From contig JAJQAO010000001.1 in assembly GCA_021203775.1 (NCBI GenBank), forward strand, positions 1-52,490: a stretch of 52,490 nt of DNA, given 5' to 3'. This document shows positions 54 to 10,200 of the stretch, piece after piece. This stretch comes from Phascolarctobacterium sp. (GTDB lineage Bacteria; Bacillota; Negativicutes; Acidaminococcales; Acidaminococcaceae). Position 1 is the first letter of the stretch. The number at the start of each line of letters is the position of its first letter. Below the pieces are notes generated by a model. It was not told where the DNA came from. It did not search any database and worked only from the letters and a program-made list of their open reading frames with translations. The position numbers and the translations under genes were made by a program.

Positions 54-2246
54 CTATATACTGTATCTCAGGCGACTTACATTAAGAAAGATTCCAACCC
101 AACTTAACAAGAAGACAGTCGTAAGTATCAGTGGTACTACAAGTGATTCATTCCATAGTACGCCTGTAGTAATAATTACCGCTATATACAAAATATTAAA
201 GAAAAACGCGAGAAATAAATTCTGTTTTATAATCAACACCGTCTGCCTGCTCAAGTTCATTGCCTTCCACAGCCATTTTAGATCCTTATTAGGCAACAGA
301 AGTCTTGCTGAAGCTGCTTCTGCACTTTTTAAAGTAGTAACGCCAATACAAGACGCTGCCAGCGCCGGAGCATCGCTTATACCTCCTCCAACCATAGCCG
401 TGAACTCCCCACTCCTGCGCAAATATCCTAACAGTTCTGCTTTGTCCTTAGGTGCCAATTCCGCTGCCACCTGGCTTATTCCAATGATATTGCCGACATT
501 TACAGAGGCATTTTTCCCATCGCCCGTAATTATTATAAATCGTAAAGCATTTCCCACTGAATTACCCATCTCATCTAGGACTCTGGGACGCACAACATCA
601 GAAAGAACAAAAATACTGCACCATTTTCCGTCCACCGATAAATAAAACACTGCACTACCCTTATTCTCAAACTCCTTAACTTGCTTTTTTAATTCTTCGG
701 GTATTGCACACATCTTTTTTATGTAATTATAATCTCCAATGGCAATCTTCGATCCTCTGTACCAAGCACTCACGCCGCTGCCAGGGACATAATCGCTTAT
801 CTCACATTCAAATATATCTTTTCCATAAGCTGTCTTTTTTAGTGATTCCCCTAGCGGATGCTTACTTTCTTTGGTCAAAACAGCAGCTAACTTCATAACG
901 GTATTTTTTATATCTTCTTCCCTTGGAACAACACATTCCAATCTCATTTTTCCTTCTGTCAAAAGTCCTGTTTTAGCAAGCGCCACCATTGATACCTTAT
1001 GCAACTGCTCCAAGACTGCTGTGTTTTTAAATAAAACTCCTTTTTTCTCCGCCTCAGATATCGCTTTATATAACGCGGAAAGAATGCTCATCCCTAAGGC
1101 CCCAGGACATGCGGCAAGTAAAAGTACGGTAAGCACATTCCAGCTTATGACGCTGTCGCCGCTATAAAAATACCAGCTTAATGCTACTATAACGCACAAG
1201 CTTAAAACTGCCGGCAAAAATATTATCGCTAGATTTTCCGTTGCAAAAATAGTCTCCAACGGTTCTTCAGGTATATCTTCCGCTAGATTTTCCAACTGTC
1301 TTATATATGTTTTATCCCCCGCATGTGATACTCGGAAGATTATTTTCCCACTCAAAATTATGCTGCCTGCAAAAACCTTATCTCCCTTTCCTTTGTTTAC
1401 CGGCATAGTAACATCAGTAAGGGCACTTTCATCAATGGCTGCCCGTCCCTGTATTATTGTGCCGTCTGCGACGATGGTCTCGCCACTTTCTGCAATTACC
1501 AGATCTTTTGGAAAAACATCTTCGCCTGAAACTTTATATTCTTGGTTTCTCAGAAGAATTCTGCAAACAAAAGTATCTCTCGTGTGATTTTTATTCGACG
1601 CGTAATCATCTTCCAGCATACTAATCCTTACTGCATAATATTCATCTACCATAAGTAATAGCAGTAGAGCTGTGGCCGGAGCAAAATAAATAGTTCGGAC
1701 ACTGTCAAAGCCCTGTATAATTCTTACTGTTCTCCAAACACTGAAAAAAAAAGCCACACTGCAGGCCAAAGACGCTAAAGAATCCATGGACGGTACTCCT
1801 GCCACAAGCTTAGAAAGTCCCCTTCGCAGAAGAAAGTACCCCTGCCATAGGGCCAAGGACCCAAAAAGTACCTCTGCAACTGCCATCATCCCGAGAAATG
1901 AAATGGATACTCTGCCGTTGCCAATAAAGCAAGCAAGTTCCAATACTATAAGTACTGCAAGACATCCTCCTATATGGCGAATGCGTTTTTTTATGTTAAC
2001 ATCTGCATCATTTCTTATTTCCTGCCCGTTTTTATCAGATAGTATAACCTTAAAGCCACAACTTGCCACGGCTTCATATAAAATTTCCTGTGTCACTGGA
2101 CCGTCCGTAAAACGTATTCTTGCTTCTTCTTTTTCTATATCGACAAGCACCGAATCCACTCCTGGCACCTGGCTGAGAGCTCTCTCTACCGTTGCAGCAC
2201 ATACAGTACTCCGCATTCCAGCTATTTTTATTTTTATCGTATCCAA
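54..2246 (-). CDS. Degenerate P1B-type heavy-metal ATPase homologue (likely catalytically dead)
   Basis: The 730 residues have the full layout of a copper-type P1B ATPase: an N-terminal HMA domain (about 3-70), eight probable membrane helices (about 92-210, 338-395 and 668-725), an actuator loop and a P/N domain. The key motifs are altered. The HMA motif has Ser13 for the first Cys (Cys16 is kept), TGES is TDVT (277-280), CPC is CPG (380-382), the phosphorylated Asp of DKTGTLT is Ala424, and GDGxND reads GGGISD (620-625). HP (463-464), TGD (574-576) and the QNL...N of helix 7 remain. The frame is open throughout. The start is uncertain: the TTG used here has poor ribosome-site spacing, while GGAGG (2271-2275) lies 9 nt before an in-frame CTG at 2261. 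It follows the uridine kinase-like gene by 50 nt, probably as one unit. ATP-driven transport is unlikely; a metal-binding or regulatory membrane role is inference. Confidence 0.85.
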   Translation of the reverse strand: MDTIKIKIAGMRSTVCAATVERALSQVPGVDSVLVDIEKEEARIRFTDGPVTQEILYEAVASCGFKVILSDKNGQEIRNDADVNIKKRIRHIGGCLAVLIVLELACFIGNGRVSISFLGMMAVAEVLFGSLALWQGYFLLRRGLSKLVAGVPSMDSLASLACSVAFFFSVWRTVRIIQGFDSVRTIYFAPATALLLLLMVDEYYAVRISMLEDDYASNKNHTRDTFVCRILLRNQEYKVSGEDVFPKDLVIAESGETIVADGTIIQGRAAIDESALTDVTMPVNKGKGDKVFAGSIILSGKIIFRVSHAGDKTYIRQLENLAEDIPEEPLETIFATENLAIIFLPAVLSLCVIVALSWYFYSGDSVISWNVLTVLLLAACPGALGMSILSALYKAISEAEKKGVLFKNTAVLEQLHKVSMVALAKTGLLTEGKMRLECVVPREEDIKNTVMKLAAVLTKESKHPLGESLKKTAYGKDIFECEISDYVPGSGVSAWYRGSKIAIGDYNYIKKMCAIPEELKKQVKEFENKGSAVFYLSVDGKWCSIFVLSDVVRPRVLDEMGNSVGNALRFIIITGDGKNASVNVGNIIGISQVAAELAPKDKAELLGYLRRSGEFTAMVGGGISDAPALAASCIGVTTLKSAEAASARLLLPNKDLKWLWKAMNLSRQTVLIIKQNLFLAFFFNILYIAVIITTGVLWNESLVVPLILTTVFLLSWVGIFLNVSRLRYSI

Positions 2247-2296
2247 CTTCCGCGTTTCCAGAACAGGATACCTCCATCCATATGTATTATATAATC

Positions 2297-3961
2297 TTAT
2301 AGGGCATCCTTAAATACGGATCCGCCGATAAATTCACGCAGAATAGAGTTATTCGGTATTACATCGTCGCTGATTTCTTTGACATGGGCTAGAAGCCTCA
2401 GCAACCTACGAGCTGAGAAATATGCCTTTTCCTTATCCCTAGTTACTGCTTCTAGTCTTGGCTGAGCATACTTTTTCAGCACGGCAAATTCATATATCAG
2501 TGTAGTATTGAAAACAACATCGGCACTATTCTGATAGGGGAAAATATATTGTTCTTCCCCGTAGCGCACATCATCCCATATTTCAAGTGTTCCTGCCGCA
2601 TCATGGGAACGGAATTGTGAATCGCGGACAATACGACGCAAAAGTCGCATATCCGTAGTCTGAATGCGTGTATGCTCATCTAAGGACATGGGTGTAAGTG
2701 CACTTACGTAAATCTTCATTTTATTGGCGGCAGGAATCATTGATGTTAATCTCTCGTTAAGCCCATGAATACCTTCCACAACCAATACATTTCCTCCATT
2801 CAGTTTAATCTCTCGTCCTCGATATTCCCTCATGCCACTGCGAAAATTATATTTAGGAAGCTTTACCGTTTCTCCTTTTAAGAGCCTGAAAAGGTGGTCA
2901 TTGAATAATTTTAAATCTATTGCTTCCACGGTTTCAAAATCATAACTTCCATCTGGCTTACGTGGTGTATCCGCTCTGTTTAAGTAATAATCATCCATAG
3001 AAATCGGAATAGGAAAAATTCCGTTAACCGCGAGCTGAATACTGAGTCTCTGGGCAAATGAAGTCTTCCCTGAAGAAGAAGGACCTGCAATCAAGATAAT
3101 CTTCAGCACATCTTTTTTTGATGCTATTTCATCAGCAATGGCTGCAACTTTCTTTTCATGAAGCGCTTCCGCCAACTGAATAATTTTGTCAGCATAGCCA
3201 AGATCTATAATCTGATTCAGTCTGCCTACTGTATTACATTTAATCATCTCTGCCCAGATCTCTGCCTCGCGAAAAGCTTCATTTAAACATGGTAAATCCT
3301 TAAATGGCGGCAGTACTTCCCAGTTGCCTGTATCAGGATAATTTATGACAACGCCTTCATCATCATATTTTATTAATTCGAAATTAGGCACATAACCTAC
3401 GTCAGGACACATATGACCGAAAAAGTATCCTTCTGCTTCACAAAGATAATAGACTGAAATCATAGCCTTATCATCTAGGGCTTTTAGCAACTCCACGCAG
3501 TCATCACTGCCTACTGGCATGTTTTTCATGGCTTCCTGTTTTGAGAAACGGCGTAAAATTATTTTTTCCTTATTTTGCACCATTTTATGCATTTCCGCTT
3601 CTATTTTCTTTAAATCATCCGCATTTAGCTTTTTTTCGCTTTTATCAATGCAATAAAGAGCGCTGCCAAGGGTATTGCGCACTTCAATATCCACAAAAGG
3701 ATACAACCGTTTAGCCGCTACAAGAAATAAAAACAGCAGGGTTCGCACATATATACGCATCCCCTCTTCCGAGTTCATTTCTACAAAATCCACGGTGCCA
3801 TCAGTAGTCAGAGGCCTCTGCAGATCCCATCCTTCTCCGTTGTAAATACCTTCAACTATAGGTGATCCGAAATACGTAGCATAAGCTCCAGCAAGTTCCA
3901 GCAACATACTTCCTTCCTTTACTTCTTGCTGCTTCCCGCCAGGCAATGTAAGTAACAGCAT
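2297..3961 (-). CDS. TGS-domain uridine kinase-like nucleoside kinase
   Basis: This 554-residue protein fuses a TGS domain (about 1-60) and a region resembling the second additional domain of threonyl-tRNA synthetase (about 61-230, with the stretch FGHMCPDVGYVPNF) to a uridine kinase/phosphoribulokinase-type domain from about 285. The P-loop GPSSSGKT is at 293-300, followed by SMDDYY and VVEGIHGLN as in Udk. The fusion is a recognised bacterial family, annotated as nucleoside kinase, whose substrate is not settled. Phosphorylation of uridine or cytidine is inferred from the kinase half. The ATG is preceded by AAGGAGGTG at good spacing. It lies just downstream of the aminotransferase terminator and upstream of the P-type ATPase-like gene. 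Confidence 0.9.
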   Translation of the reverse strand: MLLLTLPGGKQQEVKEGSMLLELAGAYATYFGSPIVEGIYNGEGWDLQRPLTTDGTVDFVEMNSEEGMRIYVRTLLFLFLVAAKRLYPFVDIEVRNTLGSALYCIDKSEKKLNADDLKKIEAEMHKMVQNKEKIILRRFSKQEAMKNMPVGSDDCVELLKALDDKAMISVYYLCEAEGYFFGHMCPDVGYVPNFELIKYDDEGVVINYPDTGNWEVLPPFKDLPCLNEAFREAEIWAEMIKCNTVGRLNQIIDLGYADKIIQLAEALHEKKVAAIADEIASKKDVLKIILIAGPSSSGKTSFAQRLSIQLAVNGIFPIPISMDDYYLNRADTPRKPDGSYDFETVEAIDLKLFNDHLFRLLKGETVKLPKYNFRSGMREYRGREIKLNGGNVLVVEGIHGLNERLTSMIPAANKMKIYVSALTPMSLDEHTRIQTTDMRLLRRIVRDSQFRSHDAAGTLEIWDDVRYGEEQYIFPYQNSADVVFNTTLIYEFAVLKKYAQPRLEAVTRDKEKAYFSARRLLRLLAHVKEISDDVIPNNSILREFIGGSVFKDAL

Positions 3962-4030: not shown

Positions 4031-5275
4031 TTATTTTGCCACTTCCTGCATAGCTTTGTTAATTTTTGCAGCCATACCGCCAATTTTTTTAAGTGGCACG
4101 GCACATACAGCCACACGGACCCCTGCTGCCAGTGGTACAGGGAAAATATTATCCTCATGCAGTTTATTGCATACGGCATCAGAGTCATCTGCGGGAATTG
4201 ACAAGAAAAATCCTGCCATATACGGCAACATCGGTAAGGAGCAGGCTTTAGCTTCCTCGGTAAATAAATCCGCCCGAGATTTAATCATTTTATAATAATG
4301 CTCTCGTTCCTCTTCTGTTGCCTTAAGCAACAATGGATCGCTATAAATAATCTCCAGCGTCCGCATTGCTGGACGGTTAATATTAGACCAAGTAGCGCGG
4401 CTAGAATGTTGGTTAATAGCTACAAATTCCTCAATTATTTTCTTACTTGAAGAAACGCCTATCATAGCTCCAGTACGCTGCCCGTATAAGGTGAATCCCT
4501 TAGACATGCTGTAACCGATTATCGTTAGAATGTTTGCTGGCAATCCAGATAATTTTTTAAATATTGTTCTTACTTTTTCCTTTTCACCTGCATAGTCAAG
4601 ATAAGCGACGTCTAGAAATAATATTACATTTTTATCAGTTCCCGCAGCCTCCTTCAAAACTTTGAGAACGCCATCCATATCCTCCTCCGTAAGACTGTAT
4701 CCTGTCGGGTTGTGGGCAGGCGTATTCAGCAAATAGAGAAGATTATCTTGTACAGCCAGCAGCTCCTTCACCTTCTCTTCCAATGCAGTAAGATTAAACT
4801 TGTTATTTTCATCAAGCATTTTGTAGGTGGTAAATTTGCGCCCCATATCGGTACATAAAACTTTATAGGCACCCCAATACCAGTCAGAACAAAGAGCCGT
4901 ATCCCCAGCCTCCATATAATTCCAGATAGCATGATGAATGGCGCCGGTGCCACCTGCAGTAGCAACAGCTGCCGTATATGCTTCGGGCCGTGACGCTCCA
5001 AATGTAGCATCCTGAACTTTTTTAAGGAAGTCAGGAAGCCCAGAAATAGGTGCATATTGGATAAGATCATCTGTCGTAAGGCTGCGGTAAACTTTTTCCA
5101 CAGTTGGCAGACAGGCCAATTTTTCATCTTCATCTAAAATAGCGCCAATAGTGGCATTAACAACGTTTTCATTACCGTATTTTAACGCAGCAGCTACTGC
5201 TGCCGCGCTAGCTCCAAAAATTTTATCCTGCGCAAATTTCCCTTTTGCATGACTAGCTGCAACACTTGTAGTCAT
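4031..5275 (-). CDS. Class I PLP-dependent aminotransferase (aspartate/aromatic type)
   Basis: At 414 residues it is a fold-type I aminotransferase. Visible active-site elements are AHNPTG (187-192), the LDVAYLDY segment with Asp222 and Tyr225 for the pyridoxal ring, and SMSKGFTLYGQR with Lys259 as the Schiff-base lysine, followed by the phosphate-binding Arg. The SxSKxFxLYGxRxGA pattern is closest to the AspC/TyrB group (COG1448), so the likely reaction is transamination between an aspartate or aromatic amino acid and 2-oxoglutarate. The exact substrate cannot be read from sequence. The ATG has a strong AAGGGGG ribosome site. It appears monocistronic, with an extended -10 promoter upstream and a terminator downstream. 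Confidence 0.88.
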   Translation of the reverse strand: MTTSVAASHAKGKFAQDKIFGASAAAVAAALKYGNENVVNATIGAILDEDEKLACLPTVEKVYRSLTTDDLIQYAPISGLPDFLKKVQDATFGASRPEAYTAAVATAGGTGAIHHAIWNYMEAGDTALCSDWYWGAYKVLCTDMGRKFTTYKMLDENNKFNLTALEEKVKELLAVQDNLLYLLNTPAHNPTGYSLTEEDMDGVLKVLKEAAGTDKNVILFLDVAYLDYAGEKEKVRTIFKKLSGLPANILTIIGYSMSKGFTLYGQRTGAMIGVSSSKKIIEEFVAINQHSSRATWSNINRPAMRTLEIIYSDPLLLKATEEEREHYYKMIKSRADLFTEEAKACSLPMLPYMAGFFLSIPADDSDAVCNKLHEDNIFPVPLAAGVRVAVCAVPLKKIGGMAAKINKAMQEVAK

Positions 5276-5364: not shown

Positions 5365-7728
5365 TTAAAGGTCTATAACCGTCACTCCGCTGCCGCCAGC
5401 TTCAATAGGTGCAAGATTTATATTTTTCACAAAACTGTTATTTTTGAGATATTCTGTGAGGCCAGCTCTTAATGCGCCAGTACCTTTTCCATGTATAAGG
5501 CGTAACTGCATTATACCGCTTAAAAACGCATCATCAATAGCCTTATCAACAGCAGGAATAGCCTCATCCAAGGTCATCCCTCTGAGATCAACTTCCTGCC
5601 TTGCGTTGATTGCTTTATTCATAAAATACAGGCTATCGCTTGTTTTTTTATGTTTCTTCATAATTTTAAGTTCGGTACTTGCAGATTGCATCTTGGTCAC
5701 CAAGCACTCATTGAACGGCACATTCATTTTTAAAATACCTGCCTGCACGGTAACTTCATGGTCATCAATTTCGCTAATAATACCACTTTTTCCTAATGAT
5801 TTCACAAAAACTTTAAGGCCCTTTTTTGCCGTATCCGCAGATAAAAGTACTCCATTCGGTAACTCTTCACCGCTACTCAGCTGCCGGCTAAGCTTCTTAC
5901 GTGCTTCTTCAGCCACATGTTCCAGTTTTTTTACATCAATATTATTTTTCAAGGAACGCAGTTCCTTTAAAACAGCTTCAGATTCCCTGCGACTACGTCT
6001 GTATATATCATCAGCCTGCTCTCTAGCGCGCCGCAACATTTCGTTTTTCTTTCGCTCGAATTCCTGCTTGGAAAATGCCAGCTCATTGTGCATCCGCTCA
6101 TATTCTCTCCTCAGATCTTCAATCTCCCGGCTACTACTTTCATAGCGGCGTCTTTCACCTTCTAGTTCTTGCAGCATCGTTTCCATATGCAAATGCTCCT
6201 GATTTAAAAGTTTTCTGGCCTCTTCTATAATTCCCCTGTCCAACCCTAACCGATTGCTAATACTAAATGCATTACTGCTACCCGGCACTCCCATAAGCAA
6301 TCTATAAAGAGGTCTTAGGGTCACTGAATCAAATTCAACGCTGGCGTTTTCCATACCCTCATGGCTGTAAGCAAAAGTCTTCAGTTCACTGTAATGGGTT
6401 GTAACCATGGTTAGTACGGAATTTTTATGGAGATGTTCCAGTATACCCATGGCTAGTGCTGCACCTTCATTAGGGTCTGTCCCAGCGCAAATCTCATCAA
6501 TCAGTACTAAATCTCCAGATTGTACTTCATGAAGAATGGAGATTAAATTATTCATATGTCCTGAAAAAGTGCTCAGGCTCTGCTCAATACTCTGTTCATC
6601 ACCAATATCTGCGTAAATTGCTCTGAAAACTGGAAGATATGCATTGTTTGCTGGAATAAAAAGTCCTGCTTGGGACATCATAGCAAACAATCCAACTGCC
6701 TTTAGAGCTACAGTCTTACCTCCAGTATTGGGACCTGTTATCATAAGTACATTAAATTTTTCGCCAAGTTCTACATCAATCGGCACTACTACTTCTTTAT
6801 CAAGCAGAGGATGCCGTCCCTTTTCAATTTTTAAACCACCGTTTTCTACAAGCTGTGGTCTTACCGCATGCTGTTCCTGAGCCAAATATGCCTTGGCACA
6901 GATGACATCAATTTCCGTTATCTTATCAAGGGAATGCAACAGGGCATCCGCCTCGCTGCCAACATTTGCAGAAAGCTGTCTTAAAATGCGCTCTATCTCT
7001 TCCTTTTCTTCAGATTGATAGCGTCTTATGTCATTATTTAAATTTACAATTTCCATTGGTTCAATAAAAAGCGTTGCCCCACTGCCAGACTGGTCATGCA
7101 CTAATCCCGGGAAATTCATTCTATATTCCTGTTTAACGGGAATAACATAGCGATCTTCTCGCATGGTTATCAGTGTTTCCTGAAAATATTTCTGGTTTGC
7201 CGAATTATGCAGAATATCGTCAAGTTTTTCCCGAACTCTGTTTCTGGCAATCTGAATAGCGCTACGCAAACCGCTAAGTCTAGGCGATGCACTATCTTTT
7301 ATCTCCCCATGTTCATCTACGGTATTTTCTATCTGCCTTTCAAGGCGAGGAAAACTATCCAAAGACAAGGCAATTGTGTTTAAAACAGGGCATCTATATT
7401 CATCCGCCAGAAATATTTTTATCTGCCGCATGGCTGCAGCTGTAGTCATAATTTTAAGTAAGTCAGCAGCTTCCAGAACTCCTCCAATTTCAGCCTTTTT
7501 TACGTCAGCTGTAATGTCATATGCACCGCCGAAAGGAAATCTTTTCCCCTCATCCAGAAGAAATAATGCTTCTCCAGTCTCTTCATGCAGGCGTTGTACC
7601 ACCGCAATGTTACTTTCAATGCGAAGCGAAGCGATAGCCTGACGCCCTAGGAACGTAGTTGTTTTCCTGGCTAAAATATCTTTGACTTTATCAAATTCCA
7701 AAGTTTTTATCGCAAAACGGCTCATCAT
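5365..7728 (-). CDS. mutS2: MutS2 family ATPase/nuclease
   Basis: The 787 residues match MutS2 length and order: clamp/core region, MutS-type ATPase with Walker A GPNTGGKT (332-339) and Walker B LIDEICAGTDP, a long charged coiled coil (about 510-620), a KOW-like segment, and a C-terminal Smr domain with DLRGMTLDEA and HGKGTGALR. MutS2 suppresses recombination in some bacteria and rescues collided ribosomes in Bacillus; it lacks the mismatch-recognition domain of MutS. The start has tandem ATGs (7728 and 7725); the second is better spaced from AAGGAG. It follows the U32 gene by 9 nt, so the two are probably cotranscribed. Confidence 0.95.
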   Translation of the reverse strand: MMSRFAIKTLEFDKVKDILARKTTTFLGRQAIASLRIESNIAVVQRLHEETGEALFLLDEGKRFPFGGAYDITADVKKAEIGGVLEAADLLKIMTTAAAMRQIKIFLADEYRCPVLNTIALSLDSFPRLERQIENTVDEHGEIKDSASPRLSGLRSAIQIARNRVREKLDDILHNSANQKYFQETLITMREDRYVIPVKQEYRMNFPGLVHDQSGSGATLFIEPMEIVNLNNDIRRYQSEEKEEIERILRQLSANVGSEADALLHSLDKITEIDVICAKAYLAQEQHAVRPQLVENGGLKIEKGRHPLLDKEVVVPIDVELGEKFNVLMITGPNTGGKTVALKAVGLFAMMSQAGLFIPANNAYLPVFRAIYADIGDEQSIEQSLSTFSGHMNNLISILHEVQSGDLVLIDEICAGTDPNEGAALAMGILEHLHKNSVLTMVTTHYSELKTFAYSHEGMENASVEFDSVTLRPLYRLLMGVPGSSNAFSISNRLGLDRGIIEEARKLLNQEHLHMETMLQELEGERRRYESSSREIEDLRREYERMHNELAFSKQEFERKKNEMLRRAREQADDIYRRSRRESEAVLKELRSLKNNIDVKKLEHVAEEARKKLSRQLSSGEELPNGVLLSADTAKKGLKVFVKSLGKSGIISEIDDHEVTVQAGILKMNVPFNECLVTKMQSASTELKIMKKHKKTSDSLYFMNKAINARQEVDLRGMTLDEAIPAVDKAIDDAFLSGIMQLRLIHGKGTGALRAGLTEYLKNNSFVKNINLAPIEAGGSGVTVIDL

Positions 7729-7737
7729 TGCTCCTTT

Positions 7738-10200
7738 TTAGATGACTCCACGGAAATAGTGGCCTCGCGTGGTTCCTGGCAGATTATTTGAAAATTCTCT
7801 TTCGCCCTGCAAAATCTCCTTATACATCCTTGTAAATTTTCCCACCTCAGCTGCAGCATAACTACGTGCGTCTATGCGCATGCTGTGTATGCCAATATCT
7901 TTCATATACCTAACATTTGCTGCAAGGGAAAGTTCATCAGCATTTAAAATATGCATTTTGCAATACTGATCAGTAGCTATCGGGAATTTAATCTCCTTCC
8001 TGTCGCTTAAAAAGAGCGGCTCACGACATTTAAAAGTGCATGCACCATTGTGCAGATTGCCCAGAAAACTTCCTGCCACGCAGTATTCAGAAACCATCAT
8101 TTCTAGCCGTCCCTGAACTATGCATTCCAACATCACAGGTGTCTTTCGCGCTAAATTCTCAATCTGGGCCATAGTAAGCTCGGCAGAAAGGACCGCCCCT
8201 TTTGCTCCTGCTTCTGCCCAAAATGCCAGTGATTGGCTGTTGTATGTGTTAATGGAAAGACCAGTCCATAATTTAAGCTTAGGACATTTTTTCGCCATGG
8301 GCCAAAGGCCAATATTACTGATATATACATAATCTGGTTCCAGTTCATTCCATTGAGAAAATAGTTTTTTAAAATAAAAAAGCTGTTTTTCCTTAACAAT
8401 CCTAGGTGTGGCAAATGCTATTTCTTTTCCCGCTTTACGCGCTTTATCAATTACTTTTCGATAATCATATGATGAATATACTTCTCTTGAAAAATTGTCA
8501 CCGCCAAAAATTATCCGATCTGCACCTGCATTTATGGCTACTTCTACCTTCTCAATCGTATCACAGTGAACCGTTATAATACTACCAGTATGCTTGCATT
8601 TTACTTTAGGCAGTGGTATTTCATTGATACCTTCTACATACTTCCTTTTATAAGAAAAAGCTGCTATCCTAACGCTGTTTAATTCTTCAACAGCCTGACG
8701 ACGAGCTTCGTTGATCTCGCTTACGGGAACCATAATATTTTTATCATGTTTAAAAACTAGATTTTCAAGAAAATACTCCGTGGTTCCAAGACGATCTACC
8801 TGCTTTTTTACAGTATTTTCATCAAGTGGCCTATTTCTGGCTATTTCCGTTATAAATGCCGTTTCGCCGTGCCCCGTATTCCCTTCATCATCCGTAAATA
8901 TAATCCTCAAAGGCTTTCCAAGATATGCCTCAACACAGCCCTTTATCATTATGCACTTTTTTACGTTAGGACCAAAAAAATTACCTGCATACTCCATTAG
9001 ATTGCTGTCGAAAATCCTAAAAATACGGTCATTCACCCTTACTCCACCTGGTACGTCAATAGTTACCTGTTCACCTGTGCGAGCGGTACTAACGTACGAA
9101 CCGTCCAGTTTAATGCTGTTTACTGTAATCCCGACGCGTCCCCCAACACTTACCCAAAATTCCAATCCGTCACCTATATGAAGATCCCTTTCCAGTTTGA
9201 CAAGTGCATTGCTACGACCCTTTTCCAATTTGATTACACGTCCAACTAATATACCACGGTTATTGGGACGGCTATCACTCATCATTTCCCTTCCTGGCCT
9301 GCCTGTTAAATAAGCCGTGGTAAAATCACGGTTAAATATCTGTTCTATATTCTCGAGATCCTGTCTAGATACGTGGTAATTTCCTGCAAAAAAGCTGTCA
9401 ATAGCGCGCCTATAAATATCTACTACCACGGCAACGTATTCCGGTCGCTTCATACGTCCTTCTATCTTATAGGATACTACTCCAGTTTCAATAAGCTGCG
9501 GCAAGATACTTAAGGTATTCATGTCCCGGGGGCTTAAAAGATAATGTCCCACATTTTTTCCTTCCAGCATATCCCTGGCTTCTTTATCTAAAAGTTTATA
9601 CGGTAGCCGACAGGGCTGCGCACAACGCCCTCTGTTACCGCTGCGTCCGCCAATTAAACTGCTCATAAGACACTGTCCAGAATAGCATATGCATAAAGCA
9701 CCATGGATAAATACTTCAATTTCCGTATTTTCTGCACATGCACTCTTAATTTCTGCCAGACTAAGTTCTCTTGCCAGAACTGTACGCTCCATACCAGATG
9801 CCGCTGCAAAAGCTACCCCGCTACTATTAGTAATTGTCATCTGGGTACTGGCATGCAATGGTAAATTAGGCGCTACAAGCTTTGACAGGCGTACTACACC
9901 GAGATCCTGTACAATAATACCGTCAATGCCTATATTGCTCAAAAAAACCAGGTAATCAGCTACTTCATACATTTCGCTGTCATCAATCAGAATATTTACG
10001 GTAACATATATTCGTACCCTGTGCAAATGAGCGAAAGAAACCGCCCGCACCATTTCATCACGGTTAAAATTATTAGCATATTGTCTAGCACCGAATGCCT
10101 TGCCTCCAAGATATACGGCATCAGCTCCAGCGTTTACTGCCGCTTCAAGGGCCTCCCATGTCCCAGCGGGTGCAAGCAGTTCTATCTTTTGTTGTCCCAT
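7738..10200 (-). CDS. U32 family peptidase-like protein with duplicated U32 domain
   Basis: The 820-residue protein opens with a U32 domain (ELLAPAGTWEALEAAVNAGA, about 5-25) that has the conserved cysteine set Cys170, Cys177, Cys193 and Cys197 (spacing x6, x15, x3). In U32 proteins such as UbiU/UbiV and TrhP/RlhA these cysteines hold a 4Fe-4S cluster or serve RNA hydroxylation. The C-terminal half (from about 545) contains a second, diverged barrel that repeats the VEVAINAGADRIIFGG pattern. U32 members named collagenase are mostly RNA- or quinone-modifying enzymes; RlhA-like 23S rRNA cytidine hydroxylation is a reasonable inference given the long two-domain layout. The ribosome site GGAG is 10 nt before the ATG. 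It shares a transcript with mutS2. Confidence 0.88.
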   Translation of the reverse strand: MGQQKIELLAPAGTWEALEAAVNAGADAVYLGGKAFGARQYANNFNRDEMVRAVSFAHLHRVRIYVTVNILIDDSEMYEVADYLVFLSNIGIDGIIVQDLGVVRLSKLVAPNLPLHASTQMTITNSSGVAFAAASGMERTVLARELSLAEIKSACAENTEIEVFIHGALCICYSGQCLMSSLIGGRSGNRGRCAQPCRLPYKLLDKEARDMLEGKNVGHYLLSPRDMNTLSILPQLIETGVVSYKIEGRMKRPEYVAVVVDIYRRAIDSFFAGNYHVSRQDLENIEQIFNRDFTTAYLTGRPGREMMSDSRPNNRGILVGRVIKLEKGRSNALVKLERDLHIGDGLEFWVSVGGRVGITVNSIKLDGSYVSTARTGEQVTIDVPGGVRVNDRIFRIFDSNLMEYAGNFFGPNVKKCIMIKGCVEAYLGKPLRIIFTDDEGNTGHGETAFITEIARNRPLDENTVKKQVDRLGTTEYFLENLVFKHDKNIMVPVSEINEARRQAVEELNSVRIAAFSYKRKYVEGINEIPLPKVKCKHTGSIITVHCDTIEKVEVAINAGADRIIFGGDNFSREVYSSYDYRKVIDKARKAGKEIAFATPRIVKEKQLFYFKKLFSQWNELEPDYVYISNIGLWPMAKKCPKLKLWTGLSINTYNSQSLAFWAEAGAKGAVLSAELTMAQIENLARKTPVMLECIVQGRLEMMVSEYCVAGSFLGNLHNGACTFKCREPLFLSDRKEIKFPIATDQYCKMHILNADELSLAANVRYMKDIGIHSMRIDARSYAAAEVGKFTRMYKEILQGEREFSNNLPGTTRGHYFRGVI

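Follow-up and report, generated by a model that had tools for sequence, protein, structure and literature searches.

The window analysed here is a stretch of 52,490 nucleotides from a Phascolarctobacterium sp. draft genome (contig C22 of an assembly of 0.81 Mb, 73% complete). Near its first letter, on the minus strand, lies a gene for a homologue of CopA-type P1B ATPases, which follows genes for a U32-type peptidase, a MutS2-type protein, a class I/II aminotransferase and a uridine kinase (Table 1). The frame was read again on this strand and is open for 730 codons, in agreement with the preliminary description. It starts with TTG at position 2246, and no obvious ribosome site precedes this codon. 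A CTG codon is present in the same frame 15 nt upstream of the TTG, at 2259-2261, with GGAGG 9 nt before it (window 2259-2275), and CTG rather than TTG may be the true start. The codon-position GC of the gene (0.49/0.39/0.36) is like that of the neighbouring genes.

Table 1. Features of the P1B homologue gene and of its neighbourhood in the window
Feature	Positions	Strand	Basis
P1B (CopA-type) ATPase homologue gene, predicted catalytically dead	54..2246	-	730 aa, open frame
HMA-like N-terminal domain, residues 1-66	2049..2246	-	Pfam PF00403, E 8e-10
SxxC for HMA CxxC (S13, C16)	2199..2210	-	AGT..TGT codons
TDVT for TGES (dephosphorylation loop)	1407..1418	-	codons and CopA alignment
Actuator (A) domain fold, residues ~223-320	1287..1580	-	Pfam PF00122, E 1e-31; VIA match to 2hc8
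CPG for membrane CPC metal motif	1101..1109	-	TGT CCT GGG and CopA alignment
AKTG for DKTG, phosphorylated Asp replaced by Ala424	966..977	-	codon GCT at 975-977 and CopA alignment
KHPL, HP motif of the N domain, kept	852..863	-	codons and CopA alignment
TGDGK, TGD motif of the P domain, kept	513..527	-	codons and CopA alignment
GGGISD for GDGIND, Mg-binding Asp gone	372..389	-	codons and CopA alignment
Uridine kinase/PRK-family gene (Udk), 50 nt upstream of the P1B gene, shared neighbourhood	2297..3961	-	Pfam PF00485; synteny
Class I/II aminotransferase, shared neighbourhood	4031..5275	-	synteny
MutS2-type gene, shared neighbourhood	5365..7728	-	named from sequence; synteny
U32-type peptidase gene, shared neighbourhood	7738..10200	-	named from sequence; synteny

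Motif positions were set by aligning the protein with LpCopA (3rfu, E 3e-72) and with CopA of A. fulgidus (3j09), and each motif change of the window protein falls on a catalytic position in this alignment. Of DKTG, K, T and G are still present, the membrane motif has kept CP and lost the second Cys, and the codon standing for the GDG Asp is GGA, which requires two base changes. The reading of Ala424, TDVT, CPG, GGGISD and Ser13 in the preliminary description proved correct in codons and coordinates; so did its points that the GGA codon is two base changes away, not one, and that fold-level features persist, as the HP and TGD motifs and the P1B fold attest. Its wording that every catalytic motif is altered is slightly too strong: DKTG, TGES, CPC and GDGIND are altered, but HP, TGD and the last three residues of DKTG are kept.

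Domain searches with Pfam recovered HMA, E1-E2 ATPase and HAD domains. The protein scored 332.6 bits against TIGR01525, just below the curated cut-off of 346.25, and passed TIGR01494 with 162 bits for a cut-off of 62.3, so its homology to P1B ATPases is not due to chance. The A domain was matched to the A. fulgidus CopA A-domain structure 2hc8 with a VIA Z of 16.7 (rmsd 2.4, 102 residues aligned). An AlphaFold model was built from a 7-row alignment and had a middling mean pLDDT of 63; confidence was low in the P/N region, and therefore no inference was made on the shape of the dead site. The best match of the model was LpCopA (Foldseek E 9e-29 to 4bbj; VIA Z 25.8 to 3rfu, with 523 residues aligned and an rmsd of 15.2, the domains being shifted), and the membrane helices predicted in the window protein were matched to those of LpCopA. 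P-type/P1B fold and descent are thus indicated by TIGR01494, by VIA and by the tree described below. The order of HMA, membrane, A, P and N parts and the fold are shared with CopA (LpCopA 3rfu, A. fulgidus CopA 3j09, TIGR01511/TIGR01525) at ~25-30% identity, with HP and TGD in common, whereas the phosphorylated Asp of DKTG, the Glu of TGE(S/P), the Asp of GDGxND, CPC and CxxC are missing. Of the features that mark P1B-type ATPases, the window protein has HP, the fold and the descent; these five motifs and a TIGR01525 score above the cut-off it does not have. Without the phosphorylated Asp a P-type ATPase forms no phosphoenzyme, and from this established chemistry the window protein is expected to be unable to pump.

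Relatives were searched in 59 genomes of Acidaminococcaceae, and the matches were read for their motifs. Disabled P1B relatives were found in three other genera (g6, g9 and g18), the carriers in g9 and g18 being Phascolarctobacterium MAGs (L095-L100). The g18 proteins (L095 and L100, two species, 722-723 aa) have GKTG, TG[SN]S and S[SG]CHND and have kept CPC. Those of g9 (L096-L099, four species) are shorter, at 590-593 aa, as well as devoid of the N domain, with SKQN, SRRE, SKPK or SCHK for DKTG, GN[RK]ISD, YPC, and a TGSS-like sequence for TGES. In g6 (five species read: L062, L063 and L112-L114) the proteins measure 530-534 aa, are without HMA and A domains and have lost CPC; at the place of DKTG they read VFDES, VFDEG or VFDEA, the Asp being kept and KTG gone. 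The ORF of this shrunken protein (~532 aa; L062:7063-8667 on the plus strand, L063:7359-8957 on the minus strand) overlaps the final part of a MerR-family gene that lies upstream. The catalytic substitutions thus differ from group to group, each genus having lost catalytic parts in its own way, and the membrane metal ligands vary likewise: the window protein has CPG, g9 has YPC, g18 has CPC and g6 has lost the motif. In their last two helices the disabled proteins have for the most part lost Tyr-Asn and Met-Ser. In contrast, S13 and C16 (SxxC) are invariant in all seven g1, g9 and g18 proteins. The identity of the window protein to its kin is ~30%.

Two further members retain more of the pump. 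The G012 protein (genus g4; L064:6664-8691, plus strand) is half altered, without HMA and with CPS and TGEV, and it keeps DKTG and GDGLND. In the G031 protein (genus g13; L053 7322-9550, minus strand) all motifs are canonical, unlike those of the window protein, and a CopZ-like gene adjoins. A nearby gene for an ECF riboflavin-transporter S component is common to G012 and G031. In the genomes that were read, G031 has an intact and G012 a partly altered member of the lineage, with no other CopA-clade pump seen in either, the other P1B proteins of these two genomes being labelled by motif only. The lineage is disabled where CopA co-occurs, in g6, g9 and g18. Elsewhere in the family, genus g15 has a CopA without N domain (605-613 aa; L058:195-2012, minus; L059:6587-8404, plus; L060:6973-8814, minus) that keeps TGES, CPC, DKTG and GDGVND, with a dN/dS of 0.10 for one pair.

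The search was extended to 380 genomes of the class and to a sample of 398 from the phylum. Outside the family no match in these scored near the seven g1, g9 and g18 proteins; the top matches there reach 480 bits, motifs were read for some of them, and a far-diverged dead P1B protein would not show. A scan of genome contigs with a single sequence gave no match, and a query made from an alignment gave six loci.

The tree was built with the disabled groups, G012, G031 and the CopA and ZntA proteins of the family. The disabled groups, G012 and G031 form one side, apart from CopA, with 100/100 support. As a check on long-branch effects each disabled group was placed alone, and each still joined G031 rather than the CopA of its own genus. 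The branch of the window protein is very long (1.82), its nearest intact relative in the tree is G031 (~30% identity), and its placement on the CopA side was rejected (p-AU 0.001). Descent of the window gene, by decay, from the genus's own CopA is rejected by the tree and the AU test. The node that unites the seven g1, g9 and g18 proteins reaches only 92/83 and the catalytic substitutions are not identical, so inactivation may have occurred more than once on the disabled lineage. The window protein belongs to this lineage by its tree position with G031, its lost motifs, its SxxC HMA and its synteny with g18, where the order MutS2-aminotransferase-Udk-[phosphoesterase]-P1B is that of the window with one extra gene. 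It therefore shares a lineage with g9, g18 and g6, catalytic sites having been lost in all of them, S13/C16 with g9 and g18, and synteny with g18; it differs from g9, which is without the N domain, from g18, which keeps CPC, and from g6, which is without HMA and A domains and retains an Asp where DKTG would stand. When neighbourhoods were compared, no operon partner of the disabled P1B gene was common across genera.

Selection was estimated within g6, g9 and g18 as dN/dS by the method of Nei-Gojobori. The ratio was 0.09-0.18 in g9 and 0.16 in g18, values that are rough since dS is mostly above 1. Three g6 pairs gave 0.14-0.19 at an unsaturated dS of 0.23-0.25, and more distant g6 pairs gave 0.24-0.35. 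The most conserved part is HMA in g9 (pN/pS 0.10-0.15), and M3-M4 with the P domain in g18. To judge from these ratios, the disabled homologues of the three genera are under purifying selection. For the window gene the genomes compared contain no close intact homologue suited to dN/dS, the copy in the sister species being a remnant. In a neutral simulation of its ORF (2193 bases, substitutions only) it took a median of 21 substitutions for the first stop to appear, and in 95% of runs no more than 74. Because stops arrive after so few substitutions, selection has probably acted on the window gene over most of its divergence to ~30% identity with its kin; a recent relaxation is possible.

The only other genome of the genus in the comparison is that of a second species, G001. 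It shares U32-MutS2-aminotransferase-Udk with the window, at 77-91% protein identity. Right after Udk, both ends of the P1B gene region can still be aligned, over ~210 bases each and at ~72% nucleotide identity; the middle is deleted and the remnant carries frameshifts. As this species keeps only a remnant, the gene is dispensable in the genus, its function being optional and already lost in this species. Besides the remnant this genome has a CopA. On the same contig (L061:313-5181), the U32 gene has four in-frame stops and the MutS2 gene one, with all three kinds of stop and no gaps, and erosion seems to extend beyond the P1B gene. In the window assembly, the only other P1B-type pump is ZntA-like by its motifs and, in the tree, groups with the ZntA-type protein of G001. 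No CopA, the partner considered below, was found in this 73% complete assembly, and one could sit in the missing part.

Since only one draft assembly underlies the sequence, the motif losses might be put down to faulty assembly or sequencing of an ordinary CopA gene; this has practically no chance of being right, given that every change lies within an open frame, that the GDG change takes two bases and that parallel losses occur across many independent genomes, which by themselves rule out such an error as the cause of the dead motifs. A more serious proposal is that the window gene has only recently become a pseudogene, in a lineage kept elsewhere, selection having been lifted in this genus and decay being at its start. 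The remnant deleted and frameshifted at the same place in the sister species would agree with it, as would the in-frame stops in U32 and MutS2 of that contig, the long branch of the window protein and its unclear start codon. The ORF is intact, however, with a codon-position GC like that of its neighbours, and the simulation limits free drift to at most ~3% substitutions. Moreover, the Asp is gone in g9 and g18 too, so that dead motifs alone are not signs of recent decay. We regard this proposal as unlikely, at roughly one chance in a few.

It is less probable still that CopA duplicates of separate origin were inactivated genus by genus, independently of each other, and were joined only by long-branch attraction. 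The different replacements at each motif per genus, the long branches and the modest support of the seven-protein node could be read in this way, but the groups placed singly join G031 instead of their own genus's CopA, synteny links the window to g18, the SxxC HMA is common to g1, g9 and g18, and the CopA-side placement of the window protein was rejected. A passive metal channel or facilitator, in which the P1B membrane path is kept and works without ATP, would fit the predicted helices matching LpCopA and the CPC kept in g18; it appears very improbable, as the disabled proteins do not have their membrane metal ligands in common and the Tyr-Asn and Met-Ser pairs are mostly gone.

The reading that we consider likely is that a second CopA-like lineage of Acidaminococcaceae stopped working as a pump in several genera and has been retained as a membrane protein that does not pump. 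The preliminary description had proposed a pseudo-transporter that does not stem from one fresh mutation. The latter point is borne out by the disabled relatives in three other genera, those of g18 in the same neighbourhood; these relatives carry other substitutions than A424, CPG and GGGISD, and g18 keeps CPC. The pseudo-transporter is supported at the level of the lineage, by purifying selection in other genera and synteny in g18; its channel version is unlikely, the membrane metal ligands being too little conserved. Under the favoured reading, a second CopA would lose its pump function in several genera, the disabled protein would be retained in the membrane, and it would probably have a second, non-pumping job, presumably exerted by its HMA-like and actuator domains in contact with other proteins. 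The occurrence of disabled copies beside CopA, in g6, g9 and g18 and as the remnant of G001, suggests that redundancy with CopA released the lineage from pumping, in a small sample and as a pattern noticed post hoc. Our best guess for the job, a tentative one that we would sooner doubt than affirm, is that of assisting or regulating the true CopA, which genera with disabled copies also encode.

Kinases and proteases have dead relatives that are well known as regulators. For P-type ATPases, no report of a conserved dead member was found in the literature searched, most subscription journals lying outside its coverage. That gut Acidaminococcaceae have a pseudo-P-type ATPase lineage which selection has retained for a role other than transport, e.g. 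regulating or partnering a true copper pump, has in our estimate about even chances. The family shows within itself a series that runs from the intact pump of G031 over the half altered one of G012 to the dead full-length proteins of the window and g18, the g9 proteins without the N domain, the g6 proteins without HMA and A domains, and the remnant of G001, and that opens to direct test which roles remain for a pump once pumping stops.
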